Positions 31,401 to 34,022 of a stretch of DNA of 34,022 nucleotides are shown here, in pieces (within the stretch, counting starts at the first letter, position 1; each line of letters starts with the position of its first letter). The notes under the pieces were generated by a model. The model was not told the DNA's origin. It saw nothing but the letters and a program-made list of their open reading frames with translations, and made no database searches. Location of the stretch: the NCBI GenBank assembly GCA_913057875.1, contig CAJXPI010000006.1, forward strand, positions 1 to 34,022, written 5' to 3'. Both the position numbers and the translations under genes were made by a program. This stretch comes from an uncultured Flavobacteriales bacterium. Its GTDB lineage: Bacteria; Bacteroidota; Bacteroidia; Flavobacteriales_G; Salibacteraceae.

Positions 31401-31465
31401 GTGCCCGTAACTTGGCTATAAACTCCTTCAACGTATTATTTTCGTCACCTATCAATAAGCCATAT

Positions 31466-33976
31466 ATGCATAAAATCAAATCATTTATAGTCTTTGCAAT
31501 TCTGTTAGCAGGAGTGTATGGATTGGTGAGTTTTGTAGATGGTAGTTTGATAAGTAACTCCAGTACCAAACCCATAGAAAATCAAATTCAACCAAGAATT
31601 TGGAAGCCTAAAAAAGTAGAGGTAAAATATCATTTCGGAGAGAATAACTGTACGAGTTGCCACGATGGTTTAGAGCATATTCGGGCAGAAGAATCAGGGA
31701 TGATGCAAGAGATTTTGGAAATCTCAAATCAAGCTGGTCATTCTGGAAATGATTGTATTGTTTGTCATGGAGGAAATCCTAATACTACCGATATCAATAA
31801 AGTGCATAAGGGGACTCCGGAGTTCTTTGAAGAAAACCCTGGACCAAAAAACTTTTACCCAGAACCTGGAAGTCCGTGGATTAATGATAATACCTGTGGT
31901 ATTTGCCATAAGGAGCAAGTGATGACCCAATTTACTTCTTTGATGTTTACCGAGGCAGGTAAGATTCAGGGCACCCTATGGGGATTTGGAGGAATGAATG
32001 GCTACAATCATGATATTGGAAATTATGAGGTAGAGGAAGTAAATGTTCATGAACGTTTGGGGACTGATATATTTAGAGAATACATGGCCGAATTAGAAGT
32101 GGCAGAGCCTCAAGTGTATCCCAGCAAAATGAACTCGTTACCACCCGCACCCACGGCTGAAGAGGTGATGGAAAATCCGCAGTTGGCCGTTTACACGTAT
32201 TTACGTCAAGAATGCCAACGTTGCCATACGGGAAACAAAGGCCGTCAAAAACGTGGTGATTATCGAGGTATGGGATGTACTTCGTGTCATGTTCCCTATG
32301 GAAATGAGGGGATTTACGAAGGAGGAGATTCTACCATTCAAGGTAAAGGAAAATTATTAGTCCATTCTATTCAAGGTACCCGAGAAGCCAAAGTTACCGT
32401 GCATGAAAAGCATTATTCAGGCGTTCCTGTGGAAACTTGTACCACATGTCATGATAGAGGAAAGAGAATAGGGACTTCTTATCAAGGATTGATGGAAACG
32501 GCCTATTCATCACCGTTTATGGGTGACGGAGAAAGCCAGCCTAAGTTGCATTCCAAAAACTATTTACACTTAAAAGCAGACATTCATCTTAAAAAGGGAA
32601 TGCTTTGCCAGGATTGCCATACCAGTAATGACGTGCATAGTGATGGATCGCTTACAGGAGCTACTCTTGCTCCCGTAGAAATTGAGTGCCAAGATTGCCA
32701 CGGAACGCCTTCAAAAAATCCGTGGGAATTACCCATAGGATATGGCGATGAAATATCAGGTTTTGAAAATCGTAGAGAAACTCCAAGAGGGGTTACCCAG
32801 CAAATAGCCGAGTATTTAAAGCAAGGAACAGAGTATGACCCTAAGGATGGTTATTTGATATCAGCCCGTGGTAATCCGCTAACCAATGTGGTTAAGGATG
32901 GCGATAAAGTAATTGTGCACTCCGCTACTGGAAAAGATTTAGAACTTAAACCGCTAAAGTACTTGAATGATAATTCTGAACTGAGTATAGAAGCAGAGGT
33001 GGCTATGGTTACGGTAGAAAAGCATACTAATGAAATGGAGTGCTATTCATGTCACGCTACTTGGGCTCCACAATGTTACGGGTGTCATGTGAAGGTAGAC
33101 TATTCAAAGGATTGTAAAAAGAAACCCGATTGGGTGGCTATGGGGCAAGCCCACGATGCACAAGGATTAACAGCCGATGCTAGAGGAGAGCTGGAAGAGT
33201 ATTTAATTGATGGGGAGGTTTCTGAATCTAGAAGTTATTTGCGTTGGGAAAATCCACCCTTGGTACGGAACGGAGAGAATCGTATTTCACCCGCAATTCC
33301 TGGTTGTCAAACCACGGTTACGGTTATAGGTACGGATGGCAAACCTTTATTAGAAAACGAAATTTTTAAAATCCCTAATGTAGAAGGTGCGGATGAGGAA
33401 GGGCAGCTTGGAATTGATATTTCTCCGGTACAACCGCATACCATTCAAAAAGAATCTCGTGCTTGTGAGAGTTGTCATTCCAATCCACAGAGTATGGGAT
33501 ACGGAATTGAGGGAGGAACTATCTATGGAGATCCGTCTAAAGATTTTGATGTGGAAATTGGTTCTGGCGTAGGTACTCCCTTGGCTCAGAACACCCATGC
33601 CCAGGTAAATGCTATTCCTAATTTAACTATGGATTGGTCGCGCTTTGTGACGGAAGAAGGGGAGCAGTTACAAACCGTAGGACATCACTTTAAAAACTCC
33701 CGCCCATTAAATAACCAAGAAAGGCAGAACTTAGACCGAAGAGGTGTTTGTTTGTCATGTCATCAAAGTATTCCAAAAGGCAATTTGGCGGTTGATTTGT
33801 TGCATCATATCAAAGAGGTAAGTGACTCAGAAATGGATACAAAAGAGCATAGTAATTTACTTTCTAAAATTGTACAAACTGCCGCTTGGGCTCAAGTACT
33901 TCTAGGCATTTTTATTGGGTTCGCTGGCGGTTTCGTTATCCGTAGAATTTGGATGAAACGTACGGGTAGGTTATGA
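31466..33976 (+). CDS. Dodecaheme (12 CxxCH) membrane-anchored multiheme cytochrome c
   Basis: 12 CxxCH motifs: CTSCH, CIVCH, CGICH, CQRCH, CTSCH, CTTCH, CQDCH, CQDCH, CYSCH, CYGCH, CESCH, CLSCH. N-terminal TM MHKIKSFIVFAILLAGVYGLVSF; C-terminal TM AWAQVLLGIFIGFAGGFVIRRIWMKR. ATG at 31466 preferred because the track start at 31412 adds 18 aa before the signal. Confidence 0.93.
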   Translation: MHKIKSFIVFAILLAGVYGLVSFVDGSLISNSSTKPIENQIQPRIWKPKKVEVKYHFGENNCTSCHDGLEHIRAEESGMMQEILEISNQAGHSGNDCIVCHGGNPNTTDINKVHKGTPEFFEENPGPKNFYPEPGSPWINDNTCGICHKEQVMTQFTSLMFTEAGKIQGTLWGFGGMNGYNHDIGNYEVEEVNVHERLGTDIFREYMAELEVAEPQVYPSKMNSLPPAPTAEEVMENPQLAVYTYLRQECQRCHTGNKGRQKRGDYRGMGCTSCHVPYGNEGIYEGGDSTIQGKGKLLVHSIQGTREAKVTVHEKHYSGVPVETCTTCHDRGKRIGTSYQGLMETAYSSPFMGDGESQPKLHSKNYLHLKADIHLKKGMLCQDCHTSNDVHSDGSLTGATLAPVEIECQDCHGTPSKNPWELPIGYGDEISGFENRRETPRGVTQQIAEYLKQGTEYDPKDGYLISARGNPLTNVVKDGDKVIVHSATGKDLELKPLKYLNDNSELSIEAEVAMVTVEKHTNEMECYSCHATWAPQCYGCHVKVDYSKDCKKKPDWVAMGQAHDAQGLTADARGELEEYLIDGEVSESRSYLRWENPPLVRNGENRISPAIPGCQTTVTVIGTDGKPLLENEIFKIPNVEGADEEGQLGIDISPVQPHTIQKESRACESCHSNPQSMGYGIEGGTIYGDPSKDFDVEIGSGVGTPLAQNTHAQVNAIPNLTMDWSRFVTEEGEQLQTVGHHFKNSRPLNNQERQNLDRRGVCLSCHQSIPKGNLAVDLLHHIKEVSDSEMDTKEHSNLLSKIVQTAAWAQVLLGIFIGFAGGFVIRRIWMKRTGRL

Positions 33977-33978
33977 AA

Positions 33979-34022
33979 CTGTCTCTTATACACATCTGAC
34001 GCTGCCGACGATCTACTCTGTG
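33979..34022 (+). other. Residual Nextera adapter: mosaic end + Read-1 overhang + i5 index (artifact)
   Basis: CTGTCTCTTATACACATCT + GACGCTGCCGACGA + TCTACTCT + GTG: reverse complement of the Nextera i5-side adapter with an 8-nt index reading AGAGTAGA. Confidence 0.98.

Follow-up and report, generated by a model that had tools for sequence, protein, structure and literature searches.

Untrimmed Nextera adapter at the contig ends of an uncultured Flavobacteriales genome assembly

Adapter contamination at the contig ends of public microbial assemblies was described by Moeller et al. 2024 (PMC11536531). The Flavobacteriales assembly analyzed here resembles the assemblies of that survey in having adapter at its contig ends, as the reverse complement at contig starts and in hundreds of copies per assembly, and in having a side-specific adapter segment after the common part. 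The survey differs in that it counted the TruSeq 12-mer AGATCGGAAGAG and left Nextera unmentioned (PMC11536531), whereas the adapter in our assembly is of the Nextera type, recognised by its mosaic end, and both of its index reads can be made out. The other close system is the set of Nextera and Nextera XT adapters (PMC3046479). We found no difference from these: the mosaic end, the Read-1 tail, the i5 slot and the P5 start follow one another in order, and the flanks carry a Tn5 target bias. The contig-end adapter is an ordinary artefact of an already described kind, with no biology (PMC11536531).

Adapter at both ends of the contig

The window, the whole stretch of DNA that was analyzed, is all of contig C6 and has 34,022 bases. 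We compared its 3' end with the Illumina Nextera P5-side adapter, laid out as P5, AGAGTAGA, TCGTCGGCAGCGTC and the mosaic end AGATGTGTATAAGAGACAG and then reverse-complemented. The last 44 nucleotides (33979-34022) were identical at 44 of 44 letters to the first 44 nucleotides of the read-through of this adapter; the chance of an exact 44-mer match in 34 kb on both strands is ~2e-22. On the forward strand the segment is composed of 19 + 14 + 8 + 3 nucleotides. The Tn5 mosaic end CTGTCTCTTATACACATCT occupies 33979-33997 with 19/19 letters exact and is directly followed by the reverse complement of the Nextera Read-1 segment, GACGCTGCCGACGA (33998-34011), so that the string across the junction reads GGTTATGAAA-CTGTCTCTTATACACATCT-GACGCTGCCGACGA. 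The i5 index slot TCTACTCT (34012-34019) comes next, and the window closes with GTG (34020-34022), the first three letters of the reverse-complemented P5 segment (GTGTAGATCTCG...); on other contigs of the assembly these P5 letters run on to GTGTAGA. In reverse complement the slot reads AGAGTAGA, which is index 504 in Table 5 of PMC4712552, where index 704 is given as GCTCAGGA. The first-pass annotation had described an adapter with this composition at these positions and named the index as S504/N504; the composition agreed with our comparison and the index with the published table. We are practically certain that 33979-34022 is Nextera adapter from Tn5 tagmentation that was left untrimmed, probably joined to the contig end by read-through of a short insert, and we found nothing that speaks against this identity.

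The mosaic end had a single exact match in the window, where 0.01 would be expected at up to 3 mismatches. Because this artificial sequence combines the two natural Tn5 ends, outside and inside, and hence resembles both, we also considered a real Tn5/IS50 element end that had been cut by the contig end. Searches allowing up to 2 and 3 mismatches found neither the natural outside end nor the natural inside end in the window, and the 19 letters are those of the engineered hyperactive mosaic end (PMC3046479). The mosaic-end copies among the matches listed stood at contig ends and had two alternative tails. The Read-1, i5 and P5 letters after the mosaic end refute a natural element end, to which we give virtually no credence.

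At the other end of the window, a truncated mosaic end, ATGTGTATAAGAGACAG, was found on the reverse strand at 1-17. It matches 17 of the 19 nucleotides with the outer two absent, a length at which the R1 and R2 sides are indistinguishable, and it had been missed by the first-pass annotation. Since the window spans the whole contig, both ends of C6 are adapter. The 5' adapter cuts a glycosyltransferase family 9 gene on the reverse strand (1-789). The final five residues of its conceptual translation (VSYTH) are encoded by the adapter, an example of the false peptides that adapter letters can yield at cut genes.

Spread through the assembly and the Tn5 signature

The assembly has 3.17 Mb in 348 contigs (696 contig ends) and is 91% complete. 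A pattern search of all 348 contigs returned 432 exact mosaic ends, and a reversed-pattern control returned 0. The first 12 nucleotides of the mosaic end occurred in 449 copies, which for 696 contig ends indicates that roughly 60% of the ends carry adapter. The R1-side continuation, with 8 nucleotides and GTG, was found at 125 places. Its i5 slot was TCTACTCT in the R1-side matches listed (about 100), with a single exception, and in 8/8 of the R1-side ends that we fetched. The R2-side continuation was found at 204 places, and its i7 slot was TCCTGAGC, the read-through form of i7 index 704, in 26/26 fetched readable ends. With i5 504 at the R1 ends and i7 704 at the R2 ends, the library is 704+504. 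The sole deviating i5 slot among the R1-side matches listed was on contig C204 (5-48) and read CCTCCTCT as opposed to TCTACTCT; it reflects either read errors or else a read from another library. The R1-side adapter tails at contig starts (n=78) were at most 50 nucleotides long, mostly 44-50; the assembler k-mer, tip clipping or partial trimming may lie behind this cap.

The genomic bases adjoining the mosaic end were biased in composition. Across 9 positions at 155 R1 ends, with the window's own base composition as background (A 0.30, C 0.17, G 0.20, T 0.33), we found a dyad-symmetric bias with its centre of symmetry at -5 and chi-square values of up to 58 (3 df). Y made up 77% at -6, W 83% at -5 and R 75% at -4, and the outer positions mirrored each other, with T at 41% at -8 and A at 52% at -2, and G at 29% at -9 and C at 38% at -1. 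The reported target preference of Tn5 is AGNTYWRANCT (PMC3046479). The flank bias resembles this preference, with a symmetry such as a 9-bp staggered target would give. The bias is independent evidence for transposase-made fragment ends. Together with the recurrence through the assembly under one i5 and one i7 index, it bears out the earlier description of the terminal letters as not biological.

The adapter would have entered the contig in a few steps. Tn5 transposase, loaded with mosaic-end oligos, would have cut the DNA and joined the mosaic end and Read-1 tail directly after genomic base 33978, and limited-cycle PCR would then have attached P5 together with the i5 index (504). Where the insert was short, a read started at its other side probably ran past the genomic part into the adapter; the reads may have gone untrimmed or incompletely trimmed into the assembler, which would have carried the contig on into the adapter before stopping.

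Adapter and index words in other records

The adapter 33-mer was absent from 41/41 other genomes of the order and occurred in 3 others among about 395 genomes sampled from the phylum. Many IMG/VR contigs carry the adapter, among the matches listed nearly always at contig ends, and the 8-nucleotide slot in these listed matches held mostly known Nextera index words. The i5 slot was constant within each IMG/VR dataset, one single-letter variant apart, and varied between datasets; this is how an index behaves, unlike genomic sequence. We counted 82 IMG/VR contigs with the 504 slot AGAGTAGA; they belong to several datasets, and the i7 partners of the slot number at least four, GGACTCCT, TAGGCATG, GTAGAGGA and TCCTGAGC. 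As 504 pairs with this many i7 indices, naming a library from i5 alone is ruled out.

One viral contig of IMG dataset 3300013414 carries the same 504+704 pair. Had our genome been binned from the same library as that dataset, leftover adapter barcodes could tie public records to a common sequencing library. We consider such a shared origin very improbable. The same Nextera index pairs are reused worldwide, so the pair is too weak to show a common library with 3300013414.

Adapter letters were also seen in finished and joined records. In Enterococcus faecium, three 2574-bp plasmid records labelled complete have a 32-40 nucleotide match to the Nextera adapter, as do five plasmid records of Klebsiella pneumoniae. 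The Enterococcus record NZ_CP072739.1 (L289:2501-2532) has the adapter at bases 8-39, which makes its circular closure suspect. An IMG/VR contig (L187:2154-2186) has an internal adapter followed by N, at position 2154 of 4734, and is probably a scaffold joined across the adapter.

The contig break beside the multiheme cytochrome gene

The last gene before the 3' adapter is a complete gene for a multiheme cytochrome c with 12 CxxCH haem motifs (31466-33976, forward strand). Its stop codon ends at 33976, 2 nucleotides ahead of the adapter. The mechanical start of the frame is a TTG at 31412 (854 aa), and the ATG at 31466 (about 836 aa) is a better fit to a congener, genome G009, in which the cytochrome protein is 84% identical. 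For the congener orthologue (L104:1952-4462) the alignment reported a single in-frame TAA, while the frame from its ATG is open for 836 aa; the TAA appears to precede the true start. The cytochrome itself gave weak Pfam matches to MtrC/MtrF-like and cytochrome c7 domains and one weak PDB match. Its relatives are mostly 53-67% identical and scattered in MAGs of Aquificota, Campylobacterota and Bacteroidota, and it was found in 6/42 genomes of its own order. This scatter and rarity suggest that the gene was acquired by horizontal transfer.

The window and G009 have the same upstream order, SulP, MarC, a small protein and the cytochrome. On the 3' side, G009 runs on into about 140 nucleotides of ordinary intergenic sequence, in keeping with the adapter reading of the window's last letters. 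Two genes come next there, the first for an Endonuclease_1 protein that bears a type IX sorting tail, the second for a membrane protein of the PMT_2 family. The Endonuclease_1 gene was not found in our assembly, in a search that had no positive control, nor was the PMT_2 gene, in a search in which G009 was positive. If gene order is shared, sequence is therefore missing after the cytochrome. The first-pass annotation had attributed missing downstream genes to the break, and in this it was right about the end of the contig and about the next genes of the congener, which were not found in this assembly; the adapter is no more than a candidate cause of the break.

The adapter marks the break, and it either fills the break or caused it. 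In the second case, k-mers common to hundreds of reads would have branched the assembly graph, and trimming followed by reassembly would recover the downstream genes. The large share of contig ends with adapter speaks for this, as does the merging of contigs by adapter removal in published assemblies (PMC11536531), but the share of contigs that trimming joined in that survey was just about 0.8%. The 9-bp Tn5 target duplication expected from both window ends was on no other contig end, and there was none among 41 contig ends compared pairwise; a search for a direct neighbour of C6 by this duplication thus yielded no candidate contig end. Merging in the de Bruijn graph also failed as a rule for adapter length, which had no dependence on the flanking bases shared between contigs (Spearman -0.09, p 0.45). 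The two genes not found in the assembly fit a coverage gap equally. We regard a break caused by the adapter as doubtful, though conceivable.

In the first case, the adapter would fill the end of a low-coverage gap, with the last reads over 33978 coming from fragments that ended there. This reading is moderately probable to us, and we would rather expect the contig to end near 33978 even once trimmed. The fragmentation and incompleteness of the assembly (348 contigs, 91% complete) are in agreement with a coverage gap, as are the failure to find the genes predicted from the congener and the low yield of mergers from adapter trimming in the survey of Moeller et al. (PMC11536531). Against these stands the Endonuclease_1 search, which was run with no positive control.

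The adapter is a matter of data hygiene only, in an assembly that serves as a species-representative genome. Besides false peptides, adapter can yield false start codons, as the mosaic end reads ATG TGT ATA AGA GAC (MCIRD), and false sharing of unrelated genomes in k-mer, BLAST and repeat searches. Both ends of C6, and every other contig of the assembly, should be freed of terminal adapter. Genes that lie close to a contig end are not to be declared absent from the organism, and the multiheme cytochrome family may merit a study of its own.
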